A stretch of DNA of 64,000 bases from assembly GCA_913055805.1 (NCBI GenBank), contig CAJXLF010000003.1, forward strand, positions 186,001 through 250,000, written 5' to 3'. Below are positions 1,093 through 33,253 of this stretch, piece by piece. The position numbers and the translations under genes are program-made. Under the pieces are notes generated by a model that saw only the letters and a program-made list of their open reading frames with translations, ran no database searches and was not told where the DNA came from. Source of the DNA: an uncultured Salinisphaerales bacterium (lineage in GTDB: Bacteria; Pseudomonadota; Gammaproteobacteria; Nevskiales; CAJXLF01). The number at the start of each line of letters is the position of its first letter. The stretch's first letter is position 1.

Positions 1093-1461
1093 ATGAACAA
1101 ACAACATAGCCTGGGATTTCTTGATCTCGTTAAAGCCTCCAAGGCCCATATACGTGAAGTGCATGCCACCGACATGCCGGCCCTGCTGCAGCAACACCCG
1201 CAACTGACCCTGATTGATGTACGCGAAGACAGGGAATACGCTGCCGGTCATGTGCAGGGCGCCGAACATATCGGCAAGGGCGTCATCGAGCGCGACATCG
1301 AGAAGCTGCATCCCGACCGCAGCGAGCCTTTGTACCTATATTGTGGCGGCGGCTTCCGCTCCGCACTCGCGGCCGAAGCGCTGGTGAGAATGGGTTACGA
1401 AGAGGTCTATTCCATCGACGGCGGTTGGGGCGAACTCAGCCAGTTGCTACCCACCGAATAA
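1093..1461 (+). CDS. Single-domain rhodanese-like sulfurtransferase
   Basis: A 122-residue cytoplasmic protein made of one rhodanese domain. The CH2A-type segment LIDVREDREYAAGHVQGA (about residues 40-57) and the active-site loop YCGGGFRS with the catalytic cysteine at residue 84 are both intact. These proteins carry a persulfide on that cysteine and pass sulfur to acceptors such as thiols or cyanide; the loop alone does not give the acceptor. There is no signal peptide. It lies between the 3D-domain gene and the LexA-boxed radical SAM gene, which has its own operator, so it is probably not in the same regulon as the latter. Confidence 0.88.
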   Translation: MNKQHSLGFLDLVKASKAHIREVHATDMPALLQQHPQLTLIDVREDREYAAGHVQGAEHIGKGVIERDIEKLHPDRSEPLYLYCGGGFRSALAAEALVRMGYEEVYSIDGGWGELSQLLPTE

Positions 1462-1531
1462 CGCTCCAGCCTGCACGGTACTGCAGGTCTCTCAGCGGCC
1501 TTGCAAAGAGAAGATTTGCTGCTACCATCAA

Positions 1532-1551
1532 TACTGTAAATTTATACAGTG
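1532..1551 (+). promoter_or_regulatory. LexA (SOS) box
   Basis: TACTGTAAATTTATACAGTG matches the gammaproteobacterial LexA operator (CTGT-N8-ACAG with an AT-rich core) almost perfectly. It ends 5 nt before the start codon of the radical SAM gene. There is no Shine-Dalgarno sequence between box and ATG, so the transcript probably has a very short leader. From published knowledge, PA0069 of Pseudomonas aeruginosa, the namesake of this family, is a LexA target, which supports the assignment. Confidence 0.85.
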
Positions 1552-1556
1552 TTGAT

Positions 1557-3674
1557 ATGGCCGACATACCCAGCAAACCCATCAAGGGCCGAGGTGCCGT
1601 TTCCAACCTTGCCAACCGCTTCGAGAAGGTCCTCAGCGAGACCTTTGACGATGGCTGGTGGCGGGAAGAACTGGAAGACAGTGTCGCCACCCAGGTGCAA
1701 CCGGACCCGGCACGCAGCATTATCAGCCGCAACCAGTCGCCGGATATTCCCTTCAGCCAGTCAATCAATCCTTACAAAGGATGCGAGCACGGCTGTGTCT
1801 ACTGCCTGAGCGGCGACACACCCATCCTCTATGCGGACGGCACATACCGTCCTCTCAAAGACGTCAGAATAGGTGACAGGATTATCGGCACGGTTCGCGA
1901 GGGTTGGTATCGACGTTACGCAGAAACCGAAGTACAGAACCATTGGGCCACGAAAAAACCCGCTTATCGAATCACCCTGGCTGATGGAACACAACTGGTT
2001 TCCAGTGGCGATCATCGATTCCTGACTGAACGAGGATGGAAGTTCGTAACCCGTATTGGCCCGGGCCGTGCCCAGCGTCCTCACCTGACCATGAACAACA
2101 AACTCATGGGTACTGGCCAGTTTGTTTCACAACCCCGGGAAAACGAGGAATATCGACGCGGTTACTTATGCGGAATGATACGCGGCGACGGACATCTGGG
2201 AAGCTATCGATATTCACGTGCAGGACGCACGCAGGGCGATGTACATCGTTTCCGGTTGGCGCTGACAGACCTGGAAGCCTTGCATCGGTCCCGGGACTAC
2301 CTGACCGGGTTCGGCATTAACACTCGTGAATTCGTATTTCAGCCCGCAACCGAAGAACGCGGCCCCATGCATGCCATCCGCACTTCAGCCAGGCATCAGG
2401 TCGAATGCATAAAACAGTTGATCGCATTCCCCTCCGAAGCTTCAGATGATTGGCTCAAAGGCTTTCTGGCTGGCATCTACGATGCCGAAGGTCATCTGGC
2501 CAAAAAGAATATCGTCAGAATTTCAAATTCGGACGCCGAGATCATCCGCCACATTTGCATGGCCCTGGACCATTTCGGATTCGGATACGTCCTTGAACCC
2601 ATAGAGCGTAACGGACGGAAATCCTTAACGGTGGTGCGGCTCAATGGTGGCCTGGCGAAAATACTGACCTTTTTTCATTTAACCGGGCCAGCTATTCGCC
2701 GCAAATGCTCAATCACGGGCACAGCCATTAAAAGCGATGTGAATTTACGCGTGAGAAGCATCGAAGCCCTTGATTGTGTGATGACCATGTATGACATCAC
2801 CACCGGCACCGGTGACTTTATTGCCAATGGCGTTGTCAGCCATAACTGTTTTGCCCGCCCCACCCACAGCTACCTGGATCTGTCGCCAGGCCTGGATTTC
2901 GAAACAAAGCTGTTCTACAAGCAGAACGCCCCCGAACTGCTGCGCGAAGCTTTCAGGCGCCGCAGCTACCAATGCTCTCCCATCGCGCTGGGCATCAATA
3001 CCGACGCCTACCAACCCATCGAGCGCCAGTACCGCATTACACGCCAACTGCTGGAGGTTTTGCTGGAACACCGCCACCCGGTATCACTGCTGACCAAATC
3101 GGCGCTCATTGAGCGTGACCTGGACATTCTGAGCGAAATGGCGCAGCACCGGCTGGTGGCTGTCATGGTCAGCATGACCAGTCTGGATCCGGCCATCAAA
3201 CGCACCCTGGAACCGCGTACCGCCTCACCCCAGGCACGTCTGCGTGTTCTTAGATCGCTGAGCGAGGCCGGCATTCCCACCGGCGTCATGGTGGCGCCGG
3301 TGATTCCGGTCATCACCGATCCGGAAATGGAAAGCATCCTGGCCGCAGCCGCGGAGGCTGGCGCCGTGCGCGCCGGCTATGTGCTGCTGAGGCTACCCTG
3401 GGAAGTGAAAGACCTGTTCCGGCAATGGCTGGAAGCACATCACCCCCTCAAGACCAACCATGTGATGAGCATCATCCGCCAGAGTCGCGGCGGCAAGGAT
3501 TACGACAGTCGCTGGGGGCAGCGTGGAACCGGTACCGGCAAGTTCGCGGAATTACTGATGCGCCGTTTTTATCTGGCCTGCAAGAAGCTGGAACTCAACC
3601 GGGAAGGTTTCATTCTGGACATATCCCAATTCCAGCCACCGCCCCGGCCCGGCGACCAGATATCGCTGTTCTAG
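1557..3674 (+). CDS. PA0069 family radical SAM protein (SPL-like) containing an intein
   Basis: The full product is 705 residues: 82 residues of N-extein, a 348-residue intein and 275 residues of C-extein. The spliced product would be 357 residues, the usual size of the PA0069 family, which is related to spore photoproduct lyase. The radical SAM motif CX3CX2C is formed only after splicing: C76 and C80 (KGCEHGCVY) come from the N-extein, and the third cysteine is the first residue of the C-extein (CFARPTH). Without splicing the enzyme cannot assemble its [4Fe-4S] cluster correctly. The substrate is unknown; the LexA box suggests a DNA-damage role. The ATG at 1557 is chosen because it lies just after the operator and matches the family N-terminus (KGRGAVSNL). 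The stop codon overlaps the convergent parA-like gene by 4 bp. Confidence 0.92.
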   Translation: MADIPSKPIKGRGAVSNLANRFEKVLSETFDDGWWREELEDSVATQVQPDPARSIISRNQSPDIPFSQSINPYKGCEHGCVYCLSGDTPILYADGTYRPLKDVRIGDRIIGTVREGWYRRYAETEVQNHWATKKPAYRITLADGTQLVSSGDHRFLTERGWKFVTRIGPGRAQRPHLTMNNKLMGTGQFVSQPRENEEYRRGYLCGMIRGDGHLGSYRYSRAGRTQGDVHRFRLALTDLEALHRSRDYLTGFGINTREFVFQPATEERGPMHAIRTSARHQVECIKQLIAFPSEASDDWLKGFLAGIYDAEGHLAKKNIVRISNSDAEIIRHICMALDHFGFGYVLEPIERNGRKSLTVVRLNGGLAKILTFFHLTGPAIRRKCSITGTAIKSDVNLRVRSIEALDCVMTMYDITTGTGDFIANGVVSHNCFARPTHSYLDLSPGLDFETKLFYKQNAPELLREAFRRRSYQCSPIALGINTDAYQPIERQYRITRQLLEVLLEHRHPVSLLTKSALIERDLDILSEMAQHRLVAVMVSMTSLDPAIKRTLEPRTASPQARLRVLRSLSEAGIPTGVMVAPVIPVITDPEMESILAAAAEAGAVRAGYVLLRLPWEVKDLFRQWLEAHHPLKTNHVMSIIRQSRGGKDYDSRWGQRGTGTGKFAELLMRRFYLACKKLELNREGFILDISQFQPPPRPGDQISLF
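1803..2846 (+). mobile_element. Intein with LAGLIDADG homing endonuclease, in-frame
   Basis: A 348-residue class 1 intein. Block A is C1-LSGDTPIL; block B is around residues 60-71 (LADGT...SSGDH, with H71); block F/G is YDITTGTGDFIANGVVSHN with penultimate His347 and terminal Asn348; the +1 extein residue is Cys. Between the splicing blocks lies a two-motif LAGLIDADG endonuclease: LCGMIRGDG (residues 122-130, acid D129) and LAGIYDAEG (residues 222-230, acid E229). Both metal-binding acids are kept, so cleavage activity is plausible. The insertion is exact: removing 1803-2846 restores the CX3CX2C motif. Base composition is a little more AT-rich than the exteins, in keeping with transfer. Related inteins are known in the Rv2578c branch of this enzyme family. 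Confidence 0.93.
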
Positions 3675-6872: not shown

Positions 6873-8228
6873 TCAGTCTGATTTCTGCGTGGCGTAACGT
6901 TTCAGCTTGGCCGGCGTGAAGTAGGAGGGCGGTTCGTGCCAGTCGTATTCAATACGGCGTGGCTCCTCATTGGTCATGTTCAACACCACATAGCGCCGGC
7001 TTTGCAGGTCGTAATGCACCTGCACTGGGTTGGCCACGACCGGCACCTGATAGTAGGTCAGCGCATGTGATATGGCCGTGCGCCAGAATTCACCCCGCGC
7101 ATCGTACATATCCGCCAGCAGAATAAGCCAGGAATCCTCATCAATGTAGAACACCCGCTTGCTGTAGATATGCTTCATGCCGTCCAGCAAAGTGGCTTCC
7201 ACGACCCAGACACGATGCAACTCGTAACGGGGCAGTTCAGGGTTGATATGCCCCTTTTGAATGATGTCCCTGTACTTCACCCCGGAACCGTAAAGATCGT
7301 AAGAGTTATAGGGCACATAGACTTCGCGCTTGCCCAGCAACTTGAACTGGTAGCGATCCATGGGGCCATTAAACATGTCAACCTGATCATGCGTAATCAG
7401 GCCGTCGTACAGGGGGTTGTCATGACCCACCTCGCCAATGCGCCGCACTTTTCTCTGCCCGGGGTTATAGGTATAGACCAGGGTCTCATCCTTGACCCGG
7501 TCCAGCGGCACATGCAGCAGCGTCGCATCACCCGCCTTGCTGGCCGGCGCCACCACCTTGCCCAGCAGGTAGAGATACTTGTTGTTCAGATTCTCCGGCG
7601 TGGCTTCGGGATGGTTGTAATGAAAGGCCATTTCGAAATGCACGCGCTCAATGACATAGTCGCCACTGCTGGTGGTAATGGCCCGGTTGGCATACCCGCG
7701 CAAACCCTTTGTGACATAACGCGCCATGTGATTCCACAGTGCTTCACGCCCACTTTTGGGAACAGGGAAGGGAAAGCCACGTACCGTGCCGCTGAAGCCG
7801 TTACCCTCGTTGACCAACGACACGCGCGTGGCGTTCTTGACGGTTTCGTCGTACAGCCATTGCGGAAACACCGCAGAACGTCGGCTGGGGTAGACCTTCA
7901 TTTTGTAGGTTTCCGGATACTGCCGGAACAGGGCCATCTGCCCCTCGGTTAGTTGGGCGGCATGCTGCTGGTAATTTTGGCCGGTAATTTCAAGCAGGGG
8001 CTGGTCTTCGGCGAAGGGGTTGGGCAGCGGTTTGTCCGGGTCATAATCGCCCGGCATGTCTTTCAGACCGCCATCCCAGGGCGGAATACTGCCAGCCTCA
8101 TTGCCTGCTTTCTGCGCGCCAATCGGGCTCAGCGTTTGCCCCAGCTGCGCAGCCTCGTCGTCCGGCACCGCAGCATCGGCCGCAAACGCCGTCAGGGCCA
8201 GCAAAGCGGCCATGACATGCTTGTTCAA
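6873..8228 (-). CDS. DUF1329 exported protein (first copy)
   Basis: A 451-residue exported protein with a short signal peptide (MAALLALTAFAADA) and the DUF1329 signature at the mature N-terminus (LGQTLSPIGAQKAGNEAGSIPPWDGG). DUF1329 proteins are periplasmic/outer-membrane lipid-binding-like proteins, often encoded with DUF1302 and RND/MMPL proteins and implicated in export or uptake of hydrophobic compounds. This copy stands alone; a second copy (20748-22100) lies in an operon with DUF1302. Both share the phrases around VYNPGQRKVRR and DQVDMFNG, so they are paralogues. The start has no strong competitor. Confidence 0.88.
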   Translation of the reverse strand: MNKHVMAALLALTAFAADAAVPDDEAAQLGQTLSPIGAQKAGNEAGSIPPWDGGLKDMPGDYDPDKPLPNPFAEDQPLLEITGQNYQQHAAQLTEGQMALFRQYPETYKMKVYPSRRSAVFPQWLYDETVKNATRVSLVNEGNGFSGTVRGFPFPVPKSGREALWNHMARYVTKGLRGYANRAITTSSGDYVIERVHFEMAFHYNHPEATPENLNNKYLYLLGKVVAPASKAGDATLLHVPLDRVKDETLVYTYNPGQRKVRRIGEVGHDNPLYDGLITHDQVDMFNGPMDRYQFKLLGKREVYVPYNSYDLYGSGVKYRDIIQKGHINPELPRYELHRVWVVEATLLDGMKHIYSKRVFYIDEDSWLILLADMYDARGEFWRTAISHALTYYQVPVVANPVQVHYDLQSRRYVVLNMTNEEPRRIEYDWHEPPSYFTPAKLKRYATQKSD

Positions 8229-15686: not shown

Positions 15687-16103
15687 CTACTCCTCGACAT
15701 CATCCACATCGAGCTGACCCGACACCCGGCGCCGGATATGCGACCAGCTGATGCCGACCGCCAGCACCGAACCGAGTACAAACATCACGATATAGCTCAC
15801 GGCCCGCACGCTGTCGGCCGGCACCCAGCCCATGTCCACCAGCAGCCAGATGAACGTACCGAACAGGGCAATCGCCAGGCCGAGGCCCAGCCCACCCAGG
15901 GAACGCAGGGTTGCGCGCAGGTAGATGGTCCAGCCGATCAGCAGCACCACACCCACAAACAGCTTGAACACTGTGAAGTGTGGTGTATGGCTCACCACCC
16001 AGTCATAGTAGCTGTATCCTTCCGGGTTATAGGTAACTACTACCAGAATCACTGCAATCAACCATCGCAGGCCGAATCCACCCCAGGTAAGCTGAGACGC
16101 CAT
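15687..16103 (-). CDS. DUF6524 family membrane protein
   Basis: A 138-residue inner-membrane protein with four hydrophobic segments and the DUF6524 N-terminus (GGFGLRWLIAVILVVVTYNPEG). A short charged tail ends the protein. Function is unknown. It is the first gene of a pair with the TfoX-like gene and diverges from the MFS/spermidine-synthase gene. Confidence 0.7.
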   Translation of the reverse strand: MASQLTWGGFGLRWLIAVILVVVTYNPEGYSYYDWVVSHTPHFTVFKLFVGVVLLIGWTIYLRATLRSLGGLGLGLAIALFGTFIWLLVDMGWVPADSVRAVSYIVMFVLGSVLAVGISWSHIRRRVSGQLDVDDVEE

Positions 16104-16148
16104 GCCATTTCCCCTTATTCATTCACCAGGCCGTATGTTACGGCGCAC

Positions 16149-18845
16149 ATGAAGCCGGTGTCAGTGCCCGCTAACCCGGCCGCCCTGATTTACGGCCTGT
16201 TTTTCATCTCCGGCTGCGCCGGACTCATCCTGGAACTGGTCTGGTTCCGGCTCGCTGCGTTGAGTTTCGGCAGCACCGTCTGGGCCGCCACTGCTGTACT
16301 GAGCGCCTTCATGGGCGGGCTGGCGCTGGGCAACGGCCTGGCCGCGCGTTTTGCTGCCCGGCTCGGGCAACCACTACGCATTTACTCGCTGGCGGAATTC
16401 ACCGTCGCCGGTACCGGTCTTGCACTCTTGTGGATACTGCCGGGCATCGGCAGCGCACTCGGTCCATGGGCGCTCCCCATACTGGAAGCCGGCGGCGGCT
16501 GGCCGCTGCAGGGGCTGCGATTTGCGGCCGCTTTCCTGCTCATGCTGCTGCCCACCACTGCCATGGGCCTGACCCTGCCCCTGCTGGTACAACAACTCGA
16601 TACCGGGGAGGTAGCGAAATACAACATCCACCGGCTCTACGGCTGGAACACACTGGGCGCGCTCACAGGCATTCTGCTGGCCGAAACCCTGCTCATTCAG
16701 ATGACCGGTCTGGCAGGCAGTGCGCTGGCCGCCGCCCTGCTGTGCCTGGCGGCCGCGGCCGGCGCATGGCGACTGAATCGGCGCGGCACCGCTCCCGCAC
16801 CAGACAGCACACCCCGTCACCCGCTGGCCCTGAGACTGTGGCTGGCGGCGGGCCTGACGGGCCTGCTGATGCTGGCGCTGGAAGTGGTCTGGTTCCGCCT
16901 GCTGCTGCTGCACTTGCGCGGCACTGCCACCGCCTTTGCCGGCATGTTGGCGATCGTCCTGGGCAGCATGGCGCTCGGCAGCCTGCTGGCAGCGGCGCTC
17001 ATGAAACGGCGCCCGCCTTCCTGGCAGCTGGCTTTCTGGCTGGCCGCAGGCTGCGTCGCCAGCATCCCGCTGGGCTATGCCAGCCTCAACCTGCCCCTGC
17101 CTGTCTGGCTGCGGGCATGCCTGCTCATGGCGCCCTGTGCCCTGGCTTCCGGCGCGCTACTGCCTACCCTGGCAGCCCTGCACGTTCATCAGCATCAACA
17201 GGCCGCCAGTGCGGCGGGACGCCTGTGGCTGATCAACACCGCCGGCAGCGCCCTGGGGGCCGCGGTCTGCGGACTGTGGCTGCTGCCCACTGCGGGCATG
17301 GAAACCAGCCTGCTGATTCTGGGGCTGGGTTATGTTGCCGTAACTTTATGTCTGTTACCGCCGGGCCGTGCCTGGGGACTGGCCTCTCTTTGCCTGCTCA
17401 TGATGACGGGCTACGCCGCATTTCCCCAGGGGCTGATTCAGGCATACCTGGCGCAGGCCACTGCCGTCTATCAACAGCTGGACAACTCCCGGGTGCTGGC
17501 CCGGCGTGAGGGGCTGAATGAAACCGTGCAACTGCTGGAACGGCGCCTGTTCGGAGAACCCTTCAGCTACCGACTGGTGACCGACGGCTATTCCATGTCG
17601 GGCACCGAACGCGATTCGCAACGTTATATGAAACTGTTCGCCTGGCTGCCGCAGAGCCTGCACACCGCGCCGGAAAAAGCCCTGCTGATCAGCTATGGCG
17701 TCGGCACGACAGCACATGCGCTGCTGGACGATCCGGCATTACAGGCGCTGACCGTAGTCGACCTGTCAGCGGATGTGCTCGCCATGAGCCCGTTGATTCA
17801 TGGCAGCGATGATCCGCTGCAGGATGCACGTGTCAGCATAAAGATCGAGGATGGCCGGCAATTCCTGCTGCTGTCCAAAGAACGCTTTGATCTGATTACC
17901 GCCGAACCACCGCCACCGCGTATGAAAGGCGTGGTGAATCTCTACACGCGGGAATATTTTCAGCTGATCCATGAGCGCCTAAAACCCGGCGGACTGAGCA
18001 GCTACTGGCTGCCGGTGGATCAACTCACGCTCGGCTCGGCGCAGGCCATCACGTCCGCCTTCTGCGCAGTTTTCAAAGACTGCTCGCTGTGGGCCGGCAG
18101 CAATTACAACTGGATTCTGCTGGGCGGCAAACAAGCCTTTGAACCGGTCGCCGGAGATACGCTGGTCCGCCCCTGGACATTTGCAGCAGAAAACCTGAAA
18201 GCCCTTGGGCTGGAAGAACCCGCCCTGCTCGGCCTGACTTTTCTGGCCGATCACGAGCAGTTACACCGCTGGTACGGCGACACAGCACCGCTGACCGACC
18301 ACTGGCCCAAGCGTCTCTCCGAACAGCAGGCGTCGAAACCGGACATTCAGGCCTATGCCGCCTGGGCCGACAACCTGGTGACTCAACAGCGTTTTGCCGA
18401 ATCCCTGTGGATCCGCGAACGCTTCCCGGCGGCCTGGCGTCAACGAGCTCTGGCGCAATTCGATCTGCAGCCGATCTTCAACAATGAACTACCGCCCGAT
18501 CCGCTAGCCCGGCTGCCGCTGGTCAACGAACTACTGCAAAGCGCGCGCTATCAGACACCGGTGTACTGGCTGCTGGGCAGTGGCATGGCTGAACAGCGCC
18601 TGATTGATCAGCTACTGGAAAAGCAGGGCTACCGCAGTGAATTTGCCTACGATCTGGGTGTGCGTGCGCTGGTGCAGGAAAACTTCGGTGCCGCTGCCAG
18701 CCTTTTCCGCGAAGCGCTCAGCAACGGCGAAACACGGGCGCTGGGTCCGGCCATCTATAGCCTGTGCCGCAATAATATGGCCTTATCTGCACGGACCCTG
18801 GCACGGAAGCAAAACAAACATCTCCCGATAAAATGTTGGGATTAA
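16149..18845 (+). CDS. Fused MFS-like membrane / spermidine-synthase-like protein
   Basis: An 898-residue protein. Residues 1 to about 430 hold some ten to twelve membrane helices; about 500-720 form a spermidine-synthase-like Rossmann domain (LISYGVGTTAHALL, TVVDLSADVLAM, IEDGRQFLL); the remainder is helical and TPR-like. In place of the canonical catalytic Asp motif after strand 4 there is AEPPPPRMKGVVNLYTREYF, so true aminopropyl transfer is doubtful. This fused architecture is widespread and poorly understood. The ATG at 16149 begins the first helix region; the frame upstream overlaps the DUF6524 gene and is ignored. The last part becomes AT-richer as the next island begins. Confidence 0.83.
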   Translation: MKPVSVPANPAALIYGLFFISGCAGLILELVWFRLAALSFGSTVWAATAVLSAFMGGLALGNGLAARFAARLGQPLRIYSLAEFTVAGTGLALLWILPGIGSALGPWALPILEAGGGWPLQGLRFAAAFLLMLLPTTAMGLTLPLLVQQLDTGEVAKYNIHRLYGWNTLGALTGILLAETLLIQMTGLAGSALAAALLCLAAAAGAWRLNRRGTAPAPDSTPRHPLALRLWLAAGLTGLLMLALEVVWFRLLLLHLRGTATAFAGMLAIVLGSMALGSLLAAALMKRRPPSWQLAFWLAAGCVASIPLGYASLNLPLPVWLRACLLMAPCALASGALLPTLAALHVHQHQQAASAAGRLWLINTAGSALGAAVCGLWLLPTAGMETSLLILGLGYVAVTLCLLPPGRAWGLASLCLLMMTGYAAFPQGLIQAYLAQATAVYQQLDNSRVLARREGLNETVQLLERRLFGEPFSYRLVTDGYSMSGTERDSQRYMKLFAWLPQSLHTAPEKALLISYGVGTTAHALLDDPALQALTVVDLSADVLAMSPLIHGSDDPLQDARVSIKIEDGRQFLLLSKERFDLITAEPPPPRMKGVVNLYTREYFQLIHERLKPGGLSSYWLPVDQLTLGSAQAITSAFCAVFKDCSLWAGSNYNWILLGGKQAFEPVAGDTLVRPWTFAAENLKALGLEEPALLGLTFLADHEQLHRWYGDTAPLTDHWPKRLSEQQASKPDIQAYAAWADNLVTQQRFAESLWIRERFPAAWRQRALAQFDLQPIFNNELPPDPLARLPLVNELLQSARYQTPVYWLLGSGMAEQRLIDQLLEKQGYRSEFAYDLGVRALVQENFGAAASLFREALSNGETRALGPAIYSLCRNNMALSARTLARKQNKHLPIKCWD

Positions 18846-20747: not shown

Positions 20748-22100
20748 TCACTGAATGCCGTGGCGGCGAATGGCGCTGGGGGTGAAGAAGCTGGCGTCCT
20801 CATACCAGGAAAAGTCGGGCATGGTCTCCTGGTTATCCAGACCGGCCACCACGTAGCGCCCGATCTCGAAGTCATAACCGACTTCCAGCGCGGCACTCAC
20901 GGCAGGCACGTCGTAGAAATTGATCAGATGCCCCTCCTGCATGCGCCATAGCTGGTCGCGCTGGTCGTAGCAGTCCACGGCAACGATGTGCCAGCTGTCC
21001 TCGTCCAGGTAGAACGTACGCCGCTTGTAGACATGATTCGTGCCCGGCAGCACGGTAGCGTCTACCACCCACACCCGGTGCAATTCATAGCGCGTCAGAT
21101 CCTGATTGATATGACCTGGCTGGATAATCTCGTCCGGATCGAGATCGCGCTTCTCCAGGGTATAGGCGTTATAGGGGATATAGATTTCCTTCTTACCGGC
21201 CAGCGTCCACTGATAGCGGTCCAGGGCGCCATTGAACATGTCGATCTGGTCATGTGTGCCCAGCGAGTCGGTGGCCAGGGTCGGATTGTCGTAACCCAGC
21301 TCAGGCGCCCGTCGCACGCGCCGCTGGCCGGGGTTGTAGACCCAGGCCATGTTCGGCTCCTTGAGCTGGTCGATCATCTGATGCACCAGCACGATGTTGC
21401 CGGCCAGGCGCGTCGGCGACAGCACATAGGTCAGGTAGTACAGGAACACATTGTCCTTCAGATCCTCGGGCTGGATACCGATCTGGTTGTACTTGAGCGA
21501 GACATAACGCAGCACACGGCTGATGAAATACTGACCGCTCTCACTGACCACGGCTGCGTTGTAATACCCCTTGATACCGCGCGAGACGTATTTGGTCTTG
21601 TGGTTCCATAGCGCCTCGGCACCGCTCTGCGGAATCGGAAAGGCCGGCCCGGTGACCGCGCCACTCAACGAATCCGTGCCGCTGAGCTCGGCATTCTGAG
21701 CATTGGCTTTAACCGCGTCGTAAACGCCTTGCGGATAGGAAGCGGTGCGATGGCTGGGATACACCGGCATCCTGTAACCGCTGCGGTACTCGAACATCTT
21801 CTTCTGGCCGGGCGTGAGGTGTTCGCTGTATTCCTGCACATTTTCGGCAGTGATCACGAACAGCGGCTTTTCATCAGCAAAGGGATGCACATAGCCCTCT
21901 TCGGGCGTGACCGCCTTGTGCTCCAGCCCCCCTTCCCAGGCAGGAATACTGCCATCGGCATTCGCTGCCTGCGTTGCGCCCATCGGCGTGAGGTCCTGAC
22001 CCAGCCGCGCCACTTCTTCAGGCGGCGCCTTGGCCTGCGCGGCAACGCCGGCCAGCAGCAGGGTTGTCAGCAGGCTGAGGGGAAATACTCTACGGAACAT
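20748..22100 (-). CDS. DUF1329 exported protein (second copy)
   Basis: A 450-residue exported protein with signal peptide (LSLLTTLLLAGVAAQA) and the DUF1329 mature start (LGQDLTPMGATQAANADGSIPAWEGG). It resembles the copy at 6873-8228 across its length (VYNPGQRRVRRAPELGYDNP, DQIDMFNGALDRYQW). It is the last gene of a four-gene operon (hydroxylase, membrane protein, DUF1302, DUF1329), 14 bp after DUF1302. The pair DUF1302-DUF1329 is a recurrent unit in lipid- and sterol-active Proteobacteria, with DUF1302 likely in the outer membrane and DUF1329 periplasmic. Confidence 0.9.
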   Translation of the reverse strand: MFRRVFPLSLLTTLLLAGVAAQAKAPPEEVARLGQDLTPMGATQAANADGSIPAWEGGLEHKAVTPEEGYVHPFADEKPLFVITAENVQEYSEHLTPGQKKMFEYRSGYRMPVYPSHRTASYPQGVYDAVKANAQNAELSGTDSLSGAVTGPAFPIPQSGAEALWNHKTKYVSRGIKGYYNAAVVSESGQYFISRVLRYVSLKYNQIGIQPEDLKDNVFLYYLTYVLSPTRLAGNIVLVHQMIDQLKEPNMAWVYNPGQRRVRRAPELGYDNPTLATDSLGTHDQIDMFNGALDRYQWTLAGKKEIYIPYNAYTLEKRDLDPDEIIQPGHINQDLTRYELHRVWVVDATVLPGTNHVYKRRTFYLDEDSWHIVAVDCYDQRDQLWRMQEGHLINFYDVPAVSAALEVGYDFEIGRYVVAGLDNQETMPDFSWYEDASFFTPSAIRRHGIQ

Positions 22101-22114
22101 GTCTCTCTCCAGGC

Positions 22115-24010
22115 CTAGAACAGGTACTTCACGCCAACCGCATAGTTGTCGCGGTCCTGCAATTGATTGGTAATTCTGTAATCGTCGCCACGGCCGAAAA
22201 ACGCCTGATAGTTCAGTTCGAACTGCCAGCGCTGAAGATAGCCGAACTTCAGCGACAAACTGGCCGACATGCGGTCCTCGATGAAGTTACGCGCCGGCCC
22301 GGCAGGCGTGCCCTTGGGGTCCCAGCCGAACGTGGCAACCGGGTTCATCGACCAGCTGGTGCCAAACAGATTGGGATAGGCCAGGAAGGTGATAAAGCGC
22401 ATCCCCCAGCCAAAATCATCGGCGTAATACTCTTCCACTGCATCGGCCGTGCCGCCCTTGGCATTGGTGCCCGGTGCCTCAAAACGCAGCTCGCTACGAT
22501 CGGGCATATCGATCACCTGGGTCGCGCCCACTTCACCGGCGATCACCCACTGCGAAGCGCCGAATGGGTTACGCGGACCGACCAGATAACTGGCGGTGAA
22601 CTGCAGCTGGGCCATATCCATGCGCCGGTAGCCCGGGAAATAGGAACCGGGCTGGTTATTGGTGCCAATCTGGTTGGGCGTGATGATGGTGCCGTACACC
22701 GTGCCACCCACCGGGCCAGCCAGCTGCCGGATAGGATCCAGTGCGTAATACACGAGTTCGTATTCGTCGATCTGGAACGGCTGATCCTTGCGATAACTCA
22801 GCTCACCCTGCAGGGCGATACCGAACGGCATGGAGGCATTGAAGCTGACACCGAATATCTGGATGTCCTCCAGATATTCCAGGCGGTAACCGCCCAGGCC
22901 GCGCTCGATGCTGTCGAGTTTGGCAATCTGGTCGTCATTGATACTGTCCGGATTCAGCAGCCCTGCCACCAGCAGCAGACCCGTCACACCGGTCGGATCC
23001 TGCAGGCCGGTGCCGGTCTGGCCCACTGTGATTTCGTTAAGCTGCTCCCATTCCGCCTGACTCAGTGAAAAGCCGCTGGTCACCGGCAGATGGCTATGGA
23101 TGTTCTGATAGAAAAAGCCCACCTCGGCGTCCAGCGCGGGCAGGAACCAACTGAAGCCAATACCGTACTGACCGCTCTTGGGCGCCTTCAGATCCGGCCG
23201 GCGAAAGGTCTTGTAGCCGTTGGGTAGTTCGTTCTGGCTGAAACGCTTGCTCTCCAGGGCAAAGAAGTCCCCGCCGATGGACTGGCCGTCGGTCTGGCCG
23301 AAGAAGCTGCCACGCGGCTCCAGCACGATCTCCTGATGATCCAGCTTGTAATACAGCTCGATACCCAGATTCTCACTCAACTCCATCTGCAGGAAAGCCA
23401 GATTCTCGGGCAGGAATACGTTTTTCAGTTCCAACCCCGGCAGGTTCAGCTTGTTCAGGTCAAAGGTATTGATGGAATTCACCCCGAACTGGATGAAGGT
23501 GCTCTCCCCCCAGCTCAGTACCTGACGACCCAGGCGAAAGGTATAGGGTCGCTCGAAAACCTCACCGTTGTAGTAGACATAGGCGTCCAGCAGATCGATG
23601 TCCTGGCCGATTTCATCCTTGATGTCGGAGGTGCGTTTCTGACCCACGACATCGGCCTCATCGAAGTCCACATTGACCGGATCGTAGTAGACCAGTGTAC
23701 GGATGAAGGCGCCCGAGTTGTTCCGCCAGCGCAGACTCAGGTCACCGTTGTAGTAGATGGGGGCATAGGTAATGTCGCCCTTGTCGTAGTTCAGGTTGCC
23801 GTCGTCGAAGTTGCTGCTCAGTCCTTCCCCGCCATTGCCGCGGCTGAACAGTAGCGGATCCCGGTCCTCGGCGCGGAAGGCAATACCCATGGTCAAGGTG
23901 CTGTTGAGCTGAGCCTCGAAGTCGCCCGCGGTCCAGCGATACTCAGCCAGAGACAGACCGGGCTGCAGCAACAGCATTGCCGCGATTGCATACCTTGTCT
24001 GGCGCTTCAT
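22115..24010 (-). CDS. DUF1302 outer-membrane protein
   Basis: A 631-residue protein with a signal peptide ending near AEYRWT and the DUF1302 pattern of amphipathic strands rich in aromatic residues, such as FRLGRQVLSWGESTFIQFGVNSIN. The final residue is Phe (YAVGVKYLF), as expected of an outer-membrane beta-barrel. DUF1302 proteins are FadL-like in context and are proposed to move hydrophobic substrates. Its start codon overlaps the preceding membrane-protein gene by 4 bp (ATGA), so they are translationally coupled. Confidence 0.88.
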   Translation of the reverse strand: MKRQTRYAIAAMLLLQPGLSLAEYRWTAGDFEAQLNSTLTMGIAFRAEDRDPLLFSRGNGGEGLSSNFDDGNLNYDKGDITYAPIYYNGDLSLRWRNNSGAFIRTLVYYDPVNVDFDEADVVGQKRTSDIKDEIGQDIDLLDAYVYYNGEVFERPYTFRLGRQVLSWGESTFIQFGVNSINTFDLNKLNLPGLELKNVFLPENLAFLQMELSENLGIELYYKLDHQEIVLEPRGSFFGQTDGQSIGGDFFALESKRFSQNELPNGYKTFRRPDLKAPKSGQYGIGFSWFLPALDAEVGFFYQNIHSHLPVTSGFSLSQAEWEQLNEITVGQTGTGLQDPTGVTGLLLVAGLLNPDSINDDQIAKLDSIERGLGGYRLEYLEDIQIFGVSFNASMPFGIALQGELSYRKDQPFQIDEYELVYYALDPIRQLAGPVGGTVYGTIITPNQIGTNNQPGSYFPGYRRMDMAQLQFTASYLVGPRNPFGASQWVIAGEVGATQVIDMPDRSELRFEAPGTNAKGGTADAVEEYYADDFGWGMRFITFLAYPNLFGTSWSMNPVATFGWDPKGTPAGPARNFIEDRMSASLSLKFGYLQRWQFELNYQAFFGRGDDYRITNQLQDRDNYAVGVKYLF

Positions 24011-24600
24011 GCGGCTGCTCCCTTATCCGCCGCCGCGGATGGCCGCCAACTCCAGAATGACAACGCCAGGATGACGATCAGTCCGGCATGGATTGCGGTC
24101 AGGCGGATCTCCAGCGGCCAGACCTCAACGCCGCGGACCCAGGCCATCAGGAACATGAGCAACGGCAATAACAACAGAGGTAGCCAGGGCCGCGGTGAAA
24201 GCAGCAGAGCAAACAGGGGCAGCAGGATGGCCAGTACTCCCGCATGCAGCCTTGTGGTCAGTATCCCGATAGCGAGCACCAACAGCAGCAACAGCAACTG
24301 CACTGCCCGACCCGCCTTTTGCGGCAGCCAACCACTGTGGGCCACGCGTGCATTGACCACAGCGAGCATGAGCAATGGCAGACCCATTAACGCTCCCAGA
24401 TTCGATGCATGGACATGTATCCGGGTGAACGTCTCCAGGCCGGCGAAACGCAGAGCGCCCAGCAGCGCAGCGACCGAGATGATCAAAAGGCCGACCAGTG
24501 CGGGCCCGCGCACCCATGCATCCGCGGGCGCTGAACGCCATAGCCGAACCATGGCATATACGCCTGCCAGTGCCAGCACAGCATCAGAAACTGCCAGCAT
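24007..24600 (-). CDS. Hypothetical multi-pass membrane protein
   Basis: A 197-residue, very hydrophobic protein with about six membrane helices (for example VQLLLLLLVLAIGILTTRLH and a Leu-rich stretch near residue 145). Two histidines sit in the second helix pair (RIHVHASNL), a possible metal or haem site, but no family is recognised. A strong ribosome site (GGGAGGAG) precedes the ATG at 24600. It lies between the hydroxylase (22 bp) and DUF1302 (4-bp overlap) and so belongs to the same function. Confidence 0.7.
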   Translation of the reverse strand: MLAVSDAVLALAGVYAMVRLWRSAPADAWVRGPALVGLLIISVAALLGALRFAGLETFTRIHVHASNLGALMGLPLLMLAVVNARVAHSGWLPQKAGRAVQLLLLLLVLAIGILTTRLHAGVLAILLPLFALLLSPRPWLPLLLLPLLMFLMAWVRGVEVWPLEIRLTAIHAGLIVILALSFWSWRPSAAADKGAAA

Positions 24601-24622
24601 GTCTCCTCCCTCGTGACTGTTG

Positions 24623-25504
24623 TTATCCGCCTGCCGGCTCTTGTTGTATATCCTTTTTGGCCGCCTGCGTGCGCAGCGACCACCAGTCCGGCGGCATGGT
24701 CAATATGCCCAATACATCCCCCGGGCTCCGCGCCTGCCTCAGGTCACGCCCGATCAGCAGGAAATGATTCACCGCAATGCGCAGCGGATTGAAGTCGGGC
24801 ATGTCCTTGGTCAGGCCGAACTTCACCCTCTCCTCTTCTGGCTCGAAGGTGCCAAGCAGGCGATCCCAGATAATGAAAATCCCCGCATAGTTACGATCAA
24901 TATATTGCGGGTTGGCGCCATGATGTACGCGGTGATGCGACGGCGTGTTCATGAACCATTCCAGCAACCCCAGCTTGCCGACACTCTCGGTGTGCAGGAA
25001 GAACTGATAGATCAGGCTGATGGACTGAATGGTGATAATGACCAGCGGATGGAATCCGAGGAAAGCCATCGGCAGGAAAAAGGAATAGCTGTACAGCGGC
25101 GTGGTCCAGGACTGCCGCAACGCCGTGGTCAGATTGCAGTATTGGCTGGAATGATGGTTCTCATGCGCGGCCCACAGCAATCGCACACGGTGACTGGCGC
25201 GGTGGTAGACATAGAAGCAGAAGTCCTGCAGGAAAAGACCTGCCACCCAGACCCAGACCAGTTCCGGATTCAGATCGAACAGGCGGTATTGATAGGCCCA
25301 GGCATAAAGCGCCAGCCAGCCGCCCTTGAGCGAACCGCTGATGATGACATTGCCCACGCCCATGCCCAGGCTGGCAAGGGCGTCTTCCCGCCGATACCAT
25401 CCCTTGTGACGCACCGTCGATATCACCGCTTCCAGCAAAACCAGAAACAGGAACATCGGAATGGCGTATATCACCAGCTTGTCGTTACCGATTGTCTCCA
25501 CCAT
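24623..25504 (-). CDS. Sterol desaturase / fatty acid hydroxylase family protein
   Basis: A 293-residue membrane di-iron enzyme. The eight-histidine pattern is visible: HRASHR (about residues 101-106), HENHHSS (about 114-120) and HHRVHHG (about 190-196), between membrane helices. Such enzymes hydroxylate or desaturate sterols, hopanoids or fatty acyl chains using O2 and reduced cytochrome or ferredoxin. It is the first gene of the operon with DUF1302 and DUF1329, and faces a divergent AraC regulator 65 bp away, so that regulator is the likely controller. Confidence 0.9.
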   Translation of the reverse strand: MVETIGNDKLVIYAIPMFLFLVLLEAVISTVRHKGWYRREDALASLGMGVGNVIISGSLKGGWLALYAWAYQYRLFDLNPELVWVWVAGLFLQDFCFYVYHRASHRVRLLWAAHENHHSSQYCNLTTALRQSWTTPLYSYSFFLPMAFLGFHPLVIITIQSISLIYQFFLHTESVGKLGLLEWFMNTPSHHRVHHGANPQYIDRNYAGIFIIWDRLLGTFEPEEERVKFGLTKDMPDFNPLRIAVNHFLLIGRDLRQARSPGDVLGILTMPPDWWSLRTQAAKKDIQQEPAGG

Positions 25505-25569
25505 GGAATCAACTCGCTGTCTGTATAGCGGTAAGATTGACCCATGACCCCCGCAGCCGTCTTGACCCG

Positions 25570-26607
25570 ATGCACAACGAATTGACCAACCACGCCAGCC
25601 CGGCCGGGGACTATGTCTACATGGCCTATGCCCGCGGGCTGCTGGATTACATGGAGGAACAGGGCTGTGCTGCCACCGTGCTGCTGGCCGCGGCGCATAT
25701 CGACCCCGGCCTGCTCGAGGACTCGCAGGCGATGCTCACGGGCGAGCAATATTGCCTGCTGTGGGATGAGGCCGTGCGCCACAGCGGCGATGACGACCTG
25801 GGTCTGCATGTTGGCGAAGTGGTGCGTCCGGGCAAGTACGGCATCCTCGGTTACGCCATGATGAGCAGTTCCACCCTGCTGGATGCCCTGGATCGCCAGC
25901 GCCGTTACCAGGATCTGGTGGGCAAGGTGGGCCGCTCCGAGCTGATCTGTGAGGGCGACATGGCCACCCTGCAATGGGACTCACCGCTGGCCCAGCGTTC
26001 ACGCCATGCCGGCGAGGAACATCTGGCCAGCTGGATGTCTTTCGCGCGCGCCATGCTCGGCACGGGTAAGCGCGCCTTCACGGCCAGCTTTGTACACGCG
26101 CAGCCGGCAGACATCTCTGAACATGAGCGGATCTTTGACTGTGAACTGCTGTTCGAGCAGCCCTGCACCGCCGTCAGCTTTCCGCGTGAATACCTGAGCA
26201 TTTCCCTGCGTGAGAAGAATCCGGGCCTGCAACAACTGCTCGACAGCCACGCCGAACAACTGCTGCAGCAACTGGCGCCGACCGACGACCATGCCATCGA
26301 TCAGGTGCGCAAGGTCATCAGTGACTTTCTGATTGAAGGCACGCCCACCATCGAACAGGTGGCCGAAACGCTGGACACCGCGCCGCGCAGCCTGCAGCGC
26401 AAACTGTCAGCGGCTGGATGGAGTTACAAGGAATTGCTGGACGAAGTACGCAAGAAACTGGCCATTGAGTACATGCGCGACGGCCAGCTCAGCATTCTGG
26501 ATATTGCCTATGCCCTGGGCTTCTCCGAACAGAGCCCCTTCCAGCGTGCCTTCAAGCGCTGGACCGGGCAGACACCCGGCCAGTACCGCAGTCAGCTTGG
26601 CGCCTGA
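25570..26607 (+). CDS. AraC family transcriptional regulator (OruR/ArgR-like type)
   Basis: A 345-residue regulator with an N-terminal Arabinose_bd-type ligand domain (about 20-200; the phrase GILGYAMMSSSTLLDAL is typical) and a C-terminal double helix-turn-helix (about 245-340) including VAETLDTAPRSLQRKL and IAYALGFSEQSPFQRAFKRW. This subtype commonly senses fatty-acid-like or small hydrophobic ligands. The ATG at 25570 is used; the upstream in-frame start at 25492 would overlap the divergent hydroxylase gene. It most likely controls the divergent lipid operon. Confidence 0.88.
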   Translation: MHNELTNHASPAGDYVYMAYARGLLDYMEEQGCAATVLLAAAHIDPGLLEDSQAMLTGEQYCLLWDEAVRHSGDDDLGLHVGEVVRPGKYGILGYAMMSSSTLLDALDRQRRYQDLVGKVGRSELICEGDMATLQWDSPLAQRSRHAGEEHLASWMSFARAMLGTGKRAFTASFVHAQPADISEHERIFDCELLFEQPCTAVSFPREYLSISLREKNPGLQQLLDSHAEQLLQQLAPTDDHAIDQVRKVISDFLIEGTPTIEQVAETLDTAPRSLQRKLSAAGWSYKELLDEVRKKLAIEYMRDGQLSILDIAYALGFSEQSPFQRAFKRWTGQTPGQYRSQLGA

Positions 26608-30919: not shown

Positions 30920-33253
30920 ATGATTACGCAGGAACAGATCCTCCGGGTATTGATCCCGCTCATATATGGCCGCCGCAAACTGGCCATGGCGATCCTCGTG
31001 CTGTTCACGGGAGTGATGCTCTACCAGTCCATGCAGGTCGGTATCGATGCCGGGTTCGAGAAACAGATTCCGCTCGAACACCCCTATATGCAGACCTTCA
31101 AGCAATATGAAGAAGCCTTTGGCGGCGCCAACCTGATTTCCGTGGTCCTCATGAATGAGGATGGCGACATCTACAACGAACAGTTCCTGGAAACCCTGCG
31201 CAAGGTCACGGACGAGGTCTTCTTCCTGCCCGGTGTGGACCGCGCCAGTGTGCGTTCACTGTTCACACCGGGCGTGCGCTACATCGAGATCGTGGAAGAC
31301 GGCTTCTCCGGAGACGACGTGGTGCCACGGGACTACCAGCCTGACCCGGCCATGTTCGAGAAGATTCGCAACAACGTCGGCAAGGCGGGTGTCATCGGAC
31401 GGCTGGTGGCCAACAACCAGGACGGCGCCATGGTGGTGGCCGAGTTACTGGAATGGCACCCGGTGACCGGCGAGAAACTCGACTACCGCGAAGTGGCGGA
31501 AAAACTGGAAGCCATCCGTCAGGAATTTGAAGGCGAAGGCATCCGCATTCATATCATCGGCTTTGCCAAGATCATTGGCGATGTCACCGATGCCGCGCTC
31601 GAAGTCGTGTCCTTCTTTGCCGTGGCCCTGCTGCTGTCCATGCTGCTGTTATGGGCCTTCTGCGGTTCCTTCCGTCTGTCGCTACTGCCACTGGGCGCGG
31701 CGATCGTGGCTGTGGTGTGGGAGTTCGGCCTGCTGCACAGCGCCGGCATGGGACTCGACCCCTTCGCTATCCTGGTGCCCTTCCTGGTGCTGTCCATCGG
31801 CGTCAGCCATGGGGTGCAGTACATCAATGCCTGGGGCAATGAAGTCGCCGAGAACGGCCTCAACAGTTACGACGCATCGGTAGAAACCTTCCGGCGCCTG
31901 GCCATTCCCGGCACCACGGCCCTGATTACCGATGTCATCGGTTTTGCCACGATTGCCCTCATTGAGATCGATATCGTGCAGGAAATGGCGGTCAATGCCG
32001 CCCTGGGCATGGCCGCGATCATCATTACCAACAAGGCCATGCTGCCCATCGTCCTGACCTGGGTCCACCTGGCCGATGTCGACAAGTTCCGGCAACGTCA
32101 GCATCAACGCAAGGAACTGGGCGATCGTCTGTGGAAAATTCTGGCTGTGCTCACGGACGTCCGCTGGGCCAGCCTGACCTTGCTGATCTGCGCCGCATTC
32201 CTGGCGGGGAGTATCTGGAAGTATCAGGACCTCAAGATCGGGGATCTGCAGGTCGGCGTACCCGAGCTGCGCCCGGACAGCCGCTACAACATCGACTCGC
32301 AAGCCATTGCACAGAACTTCTACCTCGGTGTCGATCTGCTCAAGGTGATTGTCGAAACCGATGCCGAGGCCTGTATTCGCCACGATGTGATGGAAACCAT
32401 CGACCGTTATGCCTGGCATATGCAGAACACCACCGGGGTGCAACTGGTCGTATCCCTGCCCCAGGTCGGCAAACGCATCCGTGGCGAATGGAACGAGGGA
32501 AACCTGGCCTGGCGCACCCTGCCCCGCAACCAGTTCGAGCTGGTCCAGGCCATCAATCCGGTGCCGACGTCCGCCGGCCTGAAAAACCCGGACTGCAGCG
32601 TCATGCCGGTGCTGATTTTCACCACTGACCACCGGGCAGAAACCATTTCCCGAATCGTGCAGGCCACCAAGGATTTCAATGCCGGCATCCCCGAAAGCGT
32701 GCCCGTGAATCTGGCACTGGCTTCCGGCAATGTCGGCGTCATGGCCGCCACCAACGAGGAGATCAAGGCCAAGGAAGTCGAGGTTGTGCTCTGGGTCTAT
32801 GCGGTCTTGCTGCTGTTCATCTGGCTCTCGTTCCGCAGCGTTCCCAGCATTATCTGTATTGTCGGCCCGCTGGCGCTGGTCTCGATGATGACCTACGCCT
32901 TCATGGCGCTGATGGATATCGGTCTGAAATCCGCCACCCTGCCCGTGGTGGCCTTCGGGGTGGGCATCGGCGTCGACGACGGCATCTACCTGTGGAGTGT
33001 GCTGCAGAAATACCTGGATGCCGGCAAACCGTTACGCACGGCCTGGTATGGCACCCTGCAGCACACCGGCAAGGCCGTGATCTTTACCTCGGTCGCCCTG
33101 CTGGTCAGCGTAAGCACCTGGTTGTTTTCCGGCCTGCAATTCCAGGCCGACATGGGCCTGCTGCTGGTGTTCATGTTTACCGCCAACCTGTTCGGCGCCA
33201 TTCTGGTATTGCCGGCCATAGCCCACTTTCTGGTCCGGCCCAGGGCCGGCTAG
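30920..33253 (+). CDS. RND-superfamily MMPL-type transporter
   Basis: A 777-residue inner-membrane protein with the two-fold RND layout: helix 1 (about 20-40), an extracytoplasmic loop, helices 2-6 (about 225-390), helix 7 (about 418), a second large loop and helices 8-12 (about 625-770). Proton-relay-like acidic residues occur in GVGIGVDDGIYLW. The first loop is shorter than in drug-efflux RND pumps, as in hydrophobe/lipid-type MMPL transporters. Such proteins recur beside DUF1302/DUF1329 genes, and both are in this region, so export or retrieval of lipids or sterol-like molecules is likely. No membrane-fusion or TolC gene is adjacent. Confidence 0.87.
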   Translation: MITQEQILRVLIPLIYGRRKLAMAILVLFTGVMLYQSMQVGIDAGFEKQIPLEHPYMQTFKQYEEAFGGANLISVVLMNEDGDIYNEQFLETLRKVTDEVFFLPGVDRASVRSLFTPGVRYIEIVEDGFSGDDVVPRDYQPDPAMFEKIRNNVGKAGVIGRLVANNQDGAMVVAELLEWHPVTGEKLDYREVAEKLEAIRQEFEGEGIRIHIIGFAKIIGDVTDAALEVVSFFAVALLLSMLLLWAFCGSFRLSLLPLGAAIVAVVWEFGLLHSAGMGLDPFAILVPFLVLSIGVSHGVQYINAWGNEVAENGLNSYDASVETFRRLAIPGTTALITDVIGFATIALIEIDIVQEMAVNAALGMAAIIITNKAMLPIVLTWVHLADVDKFRQRQHQRKELGDRLWKILAVLTDVRWASLTLLICAAFLAGSIWKYQDLKIGDLQVGVPELRPDSRYNIDSQAIAQNFYLGVDLLKVIVETDAEACIRHDVMETIDRYAWHMQNTTGVQLVVSLPQVGKRIRGEWNEGNLAWRTLPRNQFELVQAINPVPTSAGLKNPDCSVMPVLIFTTDHRAETISRIVQATKDFNAGIPESVPVNLALASGNVGVMAATNEEIKAKEVEVVLWVYAVLLLFIWLSFRSVPSIICIVGPLALVSMMTYAFMALMDIGLKSATLPVVAFGVGIGVDDGIYLWSVLQKYLDAGKPLRTAWYGTLQHTGKAVIFTSVALLVSVSTWLFSGLQFQADMGLLLVFMFTANLFGAILVLPAIAHFLVRPRAG

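Follow-up and report, generated by a model that had tools for sequence, protein, structure and literature searches.

What does an operon that combines a membrane-bound oxygenase with a predicted periplasmic protein and a predicted barrel of the outer membrane do for the bacterium that carries it? The question is raised by a stretch of 64,000 nucleotides from an uncultured Salinisphaerales bacterium (GenBank assembly GCA_913055805.1, contig CAJXLF010000003.1, positions 186,001 to 250,000), hereafter called the window. Four closely spaced genes encode a hydroxylase resembling alkylglycerol monooxygenase (AGMO), a seven-helix membrane protein, a DUF1302 protein and a DUF1329 protein, and a divergent gene encodes an AraC-family regulator (Table 1). 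The best explanation, advanced tentatively, is that these genes form an inducible catabolic cassette for the uptake and oxidation of a hydrophobic compound, most likely a glycerol ether similar to an alkylglycerol; an ether lipid is the leading but unproven substrate candidate. The cassette combines known parts in a new way and adds one poorly known partner.

Table 1. Operon genes and related features, with positions in the window.
Feature	Position	Strand	Remarks
Hydroxylase, short-form AGMO-like di-iron membrane type (FA_hydroxylase, PF04116)	24623-25504	-	293 aa; first operon gene
Seven-helix membrane protein, divergent DUF6962 relative by profile matches	24007-24600	-	197 aa; invariant H62 and H171
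DUF1302, predicted outer-membrane beta-barrel	22115-24010	-	631 aa; signal peptide by eye; C-terminal Phe
DUF1329, predicted periplasmic LolA-like protein	20748-22100	-	450 aa; signal peptide by eye
AraC-family regulator, divergent, Arabinose_bd ligand domain, GliR/QhpR-like	25570-26607	+	Likely ATG at 25570; open reading frame ends at 26607
Divergent intergenic region, presumed regulator/promoter site	25505-25569		65 bp
Lone MMPL/RND protein, subfamily of DUF1302-DUF1329-YCF48-MMPL clusters	30920-33253	+	Outside the conserved cassette
Second DUF1329	6873-8228	-	Outside the conserved cassette

The open reading frames (ORFs), strands and spacings given in an earlier note on this DNA are correct. 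The hydroxylase and membrane-protein genes are separated by 22 bp, the membrane-protein and DUF1302 genes overlap by 4 bp, and 14 bp lie between DUF1302 and DUF1329. Matches to Pfam gave 99.5 bits for FA_hydroxylase, 455 for DUF1302 and 450 for DUF1329, the last also matching LolA_like (34.5 bits); the regulator matches Arabinose_bd (158.5 bits) and HTH_18. With the likely ATG of the AraC gene, 65 bp separate its start from that of the hydroxylase. GGTCAA-like words are repeated in this intergenic region, as seen by eye only.

The same five genes, with identical order and orientation, are found in three genomes from two families of one order: that of the window and two genomes of the other family (G061, locus L042; G018, locus L043). 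Identities of the window proteins to those of G061 and G018, respectively, are 57 and 57% for the hydroxylase, 56 and 57% for DUF1302, 69 and 68% for DUF1329, and 52 and 52% for the AraC protein, and a membrane protein of about 200 residues is encoded at the corresponding position in both. Comparison of the window ORFs with the L042 and L043 stretches (17–18 kb) gave, beyond the cassette genes, just shadow ORFs and cross-matches of the second DUF1329 of the window, which matches the cassette's own DUF1329. The cassette is the conserved unit, and the flanking Dus, GDPD, MMPL and polysaccharide-type genes lie outside it. The window genome (3.38 Mb in 21 contigs, assembly 95.7% complete) has 23 DUF1302 matches and nine hydroxylase matches, so that adjacency alone could be due to chance; the occurrence of the five-gene cassette with unrelated flanks in three genomes indicates that the linkage is more than chance. 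Matches to the cassette DUF1302 at E 1e-60 were found in nine of 117 related genomes, own genome included, with 56% identity in just two and 34–38% in the other six. The class sample of 369 genomes gave 10 with a match at E 1e-60 or better and the phylum sample of 398 gave eight, the own genome again included in each, with best identities of 34–43%.

This five-gene conservation bears out the view in the earlier note of a single AraC-linked unit in which a membrane lipid oxygenase goes together with a periplasmic protein and a predicted barrel in the outer membrane. The co-occurrence of hydroxylase and DUF1302/DUF1329, on which that view had been made to depend, was found in the three cassette genomes, at locus L185 and on the Pseudomonas aeruginosa plasmid pPAMH19. 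The arrangement at L185, near a contig end, is different, and the AGMO-like gene there lacks the complete catalytic signature considered next.

Nine histidines and six other residues are described as essential in human AGMO (PMC7911779). From their positions, taken from a figure legend of that paper, a spacing pattern was derived in which one interval was allowed to vary slightly. All 15 residues are present in the hydroxylase at matching spacing (residues 101–214), with human Q162, D233, N235, Y236, W243 and D244 corresponding to Q131, D203, N205, Y206, W213 and D214; the sole difference is an interval between the Q and the sixth histidine that is longer by one residue. The complete signature was found in 45 of 145 distinct AGMO-like ORFs, and two distant FA_hydroxylase paralogues in the own genome (L059 and L060) both fail this test. 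The AlphaFold model of the hydroxylase (pLDDT 94) has yeast Scs7p hydroxylase as its best solved structural match in VIA-align (Z 6.5, root mean square deviation 6.5, 174 aligned residues). A sequence search against the PDB gave no match for the hydroxylase, and Foldseek no significant match for the model of this protein or of the membrane protein. Many other bacterial AGMO-like proteins (L066–L140, many from Bacteroidota and Myxococcota) have His in place of an AGMO-essential Tyr (D-x-N-H versus D-x-N-Y).

Like animal AGMO (TMEM195), the hydroxylase thus has an FA_hydroxylase domain with nine His and the Q, D, N, Y, W and D residues at matching spacing. In contrast to the animal enzyme, it is only 293 residues long, lacks transmembrane helices 6–9 and the AGMO C-terminal domain PF24858 (no match at E 1), and shares its operon with genes for envelope transport. 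PF24858 was seen in several long-form bacterial relatives of about 400 residues, but below threshold. Because the C-terminal domain is absent, the protein is best described, from its residue pattern, as a short-form AGMO-like hydroxylase and is not filed as AGMO proper. The 15 AGMO residues make AGMO-like a better name than sterol-desaturase-like hydroxylase, the one used in the earlier note, and a sterol is not specifically indicated as the substrate class. A search limited to one literature library retrieved no paper joining DUF1302 with sterol desaturase, none joining alkylglycerol monooxygenase, sterol desaturase and Pseudomonas, and nothing relevant on alkylglycerol growth.

The FA_hydroxylase superfamily is chemically broad, and bacterial AGMO-like proteins are many and have varied neighbors. 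The same uptake-and-oxidize logic may thus apply to a terpene, sterol, alkane or long-chain alcohol that is hydroxylated, a possibility that we consider appreciable but less likely than an ether. The retention of all 15 essential residues, a property of less than a third of the AGMO-like ORFs, and a cassette without sterol- or terpene-degradation genes argue against such substrates.

The membrane protein encoded by the second gene matches no family in Pfam, and a match to DUF6962 (PF22285) was lacking even at E 10. A homologue, L228 of genome G195, scores 32.0 bits over its full length, above the DUF6962 gathering score of 27 bits, and also matches a membrane-protein profile built from four homologues (E 6e-14). 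Since L228 links this profile with DUF6962, the window protein is, judged by these matches, a divergent relative of DUF6962. L228 is solitary, with no adjoining AGMO-like gene; the membrane protein therefore also exists alone. The profile matched five of 117 relatives and two of 369 class genomes, the own genome being included in both; a partial match in G076 (17 bits), among the five, is not counted as a homologue. Searched for DUF6962, the own genome yielded chance-level matches only, and seven of 14 control genomes also matched, all below the cut-off.

Across eight homologues, only L9, A44, A45, G48, H62, H171 and L174 are invariant. The low-confidence model of the membrane protein (pLDDT 65; just two sequences usable) contains seven helices, with H62 and H171 close to where helices 3 and 7 begin, two helices that run in the same orientation. 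As modeled, this arrangement would fit a cofactor or active-site pair and proves nothing. The best VIA-align match of this weak model is a designed bundle (Z 14.7, root mean square deviation 3.7, 189 aligned residues), natural chains scoring about 13 and below; these matches are generic seven-helix bundles (rhodopsin, GPCR and AdipoR families were considered), and the lack of a better one is no evidence of a new fold. The protein may be the electron donor, as first suggested in the earlier note, a role kept alive by the two histidines invariant across the eight homologues. A bolder scheme is improbable in our estimation: an import-and-cleave module for ether lipids, its pieces plasmid-borne, with a two-subunit, pterin-independent oxygenase to which the seven-helix partner would give electrons through heme or a metal bound by its histidines. 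A split AGMO, with the 197-residue protein as the detached C-terminal domain, was also considered and rejected: no motif shared with long-form C-termini was found by eye, and the same membrane protein follows long-form AGMO-like genes that already bear a C-terminal extension.

Pairing was assessed with 134 distinct AGMO-like loci, 129 of them with at least 700 bp downstream; loci with flanks of about 1.5 kb (e.g. L012–L040 and L147–L173 except L151) were excluded from the counts, and related loci were treated as separate. The seven-helix gene follows the AGMO-like gene in seven of the 129 loci, all with the complete signature (7/38 complete versus 0/91 incomplete; Fisher p 1.3e-4, a test that ignores kinship and is not corrected for relatedness). 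These seven belong to two clades, the window clade (4/4; local support 94, and 96 in an earlier tree) and a long-form clade (3/5; support 97). On P. aeruginosa pF076 and Delftia pKV29, a long-form AGMO-like gene overlaps by 4 bp the downstream gene for a 196-residue protein of the seven-helix family, and genome G101 (L194) carries an AGMO-like/seven-helix pair as well. DUF1302/DUF1329 genes lie within 4 kb of the AGMO-like gene in four of 90 full-flank loci (window, L042, L043 and pPAMH19), in addition to the edge-limited L185. The closest AGMO-like relative, from Sinimarinibacterium flocculans (hydroxylase 73% identical), is encoded next to a seven-helix gene, with no DUF1302/DUF1329 or AraC gene nearby. 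Within the window clade, the oxygenase/seven-helix pair is therefore the steadier partnership, and DUF1302/DUF1329 is a less constant partner.

Plasmid searches with the membrane protein or L228 as the query gave no match, so that the plasmid pairs were found solely through the neighbors of AGMO-like genes. Of the 55 plasmid records with a match, 18 were viewed for the surroundings of the AGMO-like gene, the first two P. aeruginosa records having been chosen for their DUF1302 or AGMO matches, and plasmid frequencies thus represent a biased sample. On pPAMH19 (L239, 162–24748), a Tn3-/insertion sequence-associated region contains FadL/TodX-type, AGMO-like, SDR, DUF1302, DUF1329, YCF48, MMPL and mer genes.

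These mobile settings bear on whether the operon could make or remodel envelope lipids, with the hydroxylase modifying an endogenous membrane lipid that DUF1329 and DUF1302 carry outward to the outer membrane. Such a role is unlikely. It would agree with the resemblance of DUF1329 to LolA_like and with the lipid-modifying activity of FA_hydroxylase relatives such as OlsE, the ornithine-lipid hydroxylase, whose NCBIfam equivalog model the window hydroxylase matches at 53.2 bits, far below the cut-off of 475. The distribution is patchy, AGMO-like/seven-helix pairs occur near transposases on Pseudomonas and Delftia plasmids, and a ligand-binding AraC protein, together with the clustering with catabolic genes in relatives, better fits substrate-induced catabolism.

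Other AGMO-like genes on plasmids have different company. The order AraC, AGMO-like, DUF4345 (another small membrane protein) recurs on plasmids of Acinetobacter (L245), Cupriavidus (L248) and Marinobacter (L259), between Tn3-family transposases in the last. An AGMO-like match on a Mycobacterium dioxanotrophicus plasmid (L258) is found a short way upstream of MmpS and MMPL genes, a distinct case of AGMO-like genes in the company of RND-type transporters; L258 and L259 are known by annotation only and stand outside the co-occurrence counts. On a Sphingopyxis macrogoltabida plasmid (L247), the AGMO-like gene lies amid genes for a TonB receptor, an adenylate-forming enzyme, a GMC oxidoreductase, MaoC and an aldehyde dehydrogenase, a neighborhood that we take to resemble polyether-degradation clusters.

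Outside the cassette, the closest relatives of its DUF1302 (L202–L209, 35–43% identity) each occur with DUF1329. An MMPL gene is in reach in seven of these eight loci and absent at L207, where the contig ends 2 kb downstream; the intervening ORFs, checked in two clusters (L208 and L204), are YCF48-like. As in such DUF1302-DUF1329-YCF48-MMPL clusters, represented by Castellaniella AmeABCD, DUF1302 in the cassette is immediately followed by DUF1329; the subfamily is distinct but related. Unlike them, the cassette has no adjacent YCF48 or MMPL gene, and the AGMO-like oxygenase and seven-helix protein precede the pair. No YCF48 was found among the window ORFs scanned, and no MMPL gene within 6 kb of DUF1302 in the window, L042 or L043.

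In the window alone, an MMPL gene starts 4.3 kb beyond the AraC gene. Its product shares, along most of the sequence, 48–53% identity with the six complete or near-complete cluster MMPLs, and 45% with a fragment. A partnership in trans is plausible by this likeness; the involvement of the lone transporter proposed in the earlier note is thus favored by subfamily, but no such transporter gene lies in the L042 and L043 flanks analyzed. The second DUF1329, tentatively assigned to the same pathway in that note, is a real gene for whose role no support was found. It is 45% identical to that of the operon, has no adjoining DUF1302, and lies near zinc alcohol-dehydrogenase-like and CHAD-domain genes.

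With an MMPL protein of the cluster subfamily so close by, the operon could instead detoxify a hydrophobic compound by oxidation followed by export through this pump. The efflux precedent of AmeD (PMC6394551) and the mercury-resistance genes adjoining the pPAMH19 cluster point in this direction; the absence of the MMPL linkage in L042 and L043, and fitness data for P. putida DUF1302/DUF1329 that concern growth on carbon sources (PMC10866462), point away from it. Of the explanations considered, this is the least probable.

Characterized relatives support, by analogy, a general role of DUF1302/DUF1329 in moving hydrophobic molecules, in a direction that is unsettled. The P. putida pair PP_0765/PP_0766 is described as required for growth on Tween20 and as a predicted, modeled transport complex; it shares the DUF1302/DUF1329 pairing with the cassette, but no AGMO-like gene is mentioned for it in the parts of that account consulted (PMC10866462). 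Castellaniella AmeAB is linked to monoterpene metabolism and described with an RND efflux protein (PMC6394551), and a Delftia DUF1329 deletion impairs growth on phenanthrene, as cited in PMC13101534. These three reports count both for the preferred uptake-and-oxidize explanation and for its variant with a non-ether substrate, and the description of AmeABCD as efflux (PMC6394551) favors outward transport of an envelope lipid. On other records, related DUF1302/DUF1329 pairs adjoin acyl-CoA ligase and thiolase genes, with no AGMO-like gene.

The regulator is nearest to the NCBIfam models of GliR and QhpR and below both equivalog cut-offs (250.4 bits versus 570 for GliR). GliR (PA3027) of P. aeruginosa is reported to activate glycerolipid genes, with PA3026-PA3024 as its target operon (PMC8151288). 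Both are divergent AraC regulators, but the window protein falls short of the GliR cut-off and the GliR target is another gene set (PMC8151288); the likeness is no more than suggestive. AGMO-like genes with a divergent or adjoining AraC gene recur (e.g. L057, L193, L200, L248, L250 and L252). With respect to the cofactor, the window genome encodes a pterin-4a-carbinolamine dehydratase (PF01329), and no aromatic amino-acid hydroxylase (PF00351) was found in its 95.7% complete assembly. This combination could leave room for another pterin enzyme, a weak argument because of that completeness and because the dehydratase is also present in seven of 14 control genomes. The dehydratase gene lies between what we take to be rsgA-like and orn-like genes.

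In the catabolic cassette that we tentatively prefer, DUF1302 would be the entry barrel in the outer membrane, and DUF1329 a LolA-like carrier bringing the molecule across the periplasm to the inner membrane, in which the AGMO-like di-iron enzyme would hydroxylate it with O2 and a reductant (tetrahydropterin in animal AGMO). With an ether as the substrate, the products would be a fatty aldehyde and a derivative of glycerol. The seven-helix protein would act as a partner alongside the oxygenase in the inner membrane, either accepting the substrate in place of the usual YCF48/MMPL pair or donating electrons through bound heme or metal, and the AraC protein would sense the compound or its product.

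Several observations weigh against this explanation. The cassette has no aldehyde dehydrogenase or glycerol gene, the hydroxylase is a short form without PF24858, and the genomic context of the dehydratase is ordinary. Most AGMO-like loci carry neither the seven-helix gene nor DUF1302/DUF1329, and, as the S. flocculans pair shows, the transport linkage is dispensable. The 23 DUF1302 matches in the genome mean that broad, non-ether roles are common, and AmeABCD is an efflux precedent containing DUF1302/DUF1329. What the sequences show directly is the make-up, order and conservation of the genes, the AGMO catalytic residues, and the repeated pairing of AGMO-like genes with the seven-helix protein and, more rarely, with DUF1302/DUF1329; the uptake direction, substrate class, cofactor, part played by the seven-helix protein and regulation are inferred from them.

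Two further features of the window lie outside the cassette. A radical SAM protein (1341–3674, + strand; Radical_SAM and LAGLIDADG_3 in Pfam, with Intein_splicing below the cut-off) is split by an intein that includes a LAGLIDADG-like domain, and the second half of a 1035-residue protein (15738–18845, + strand) contains a spermine/spermidine-synthase domain.

According to a published review, no enzyme other than AGMO is known to degrade alkylglycerols, and AGMO is too labile for reproducible purification (PMC7911779). A bacterial AGMO-like protein of this small size, together with its candidate partner in the membrane, would serve as a tractable model. The operon also offers a concrete hypothesis on the substrate of two common domains of unknown function, DUF1302 and DUF1329, and for a DUF6962-like membrane protein. 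The testable claim of most interest is that the seven-helix protein may be a functional subunit of AGMO-type oxygenases.

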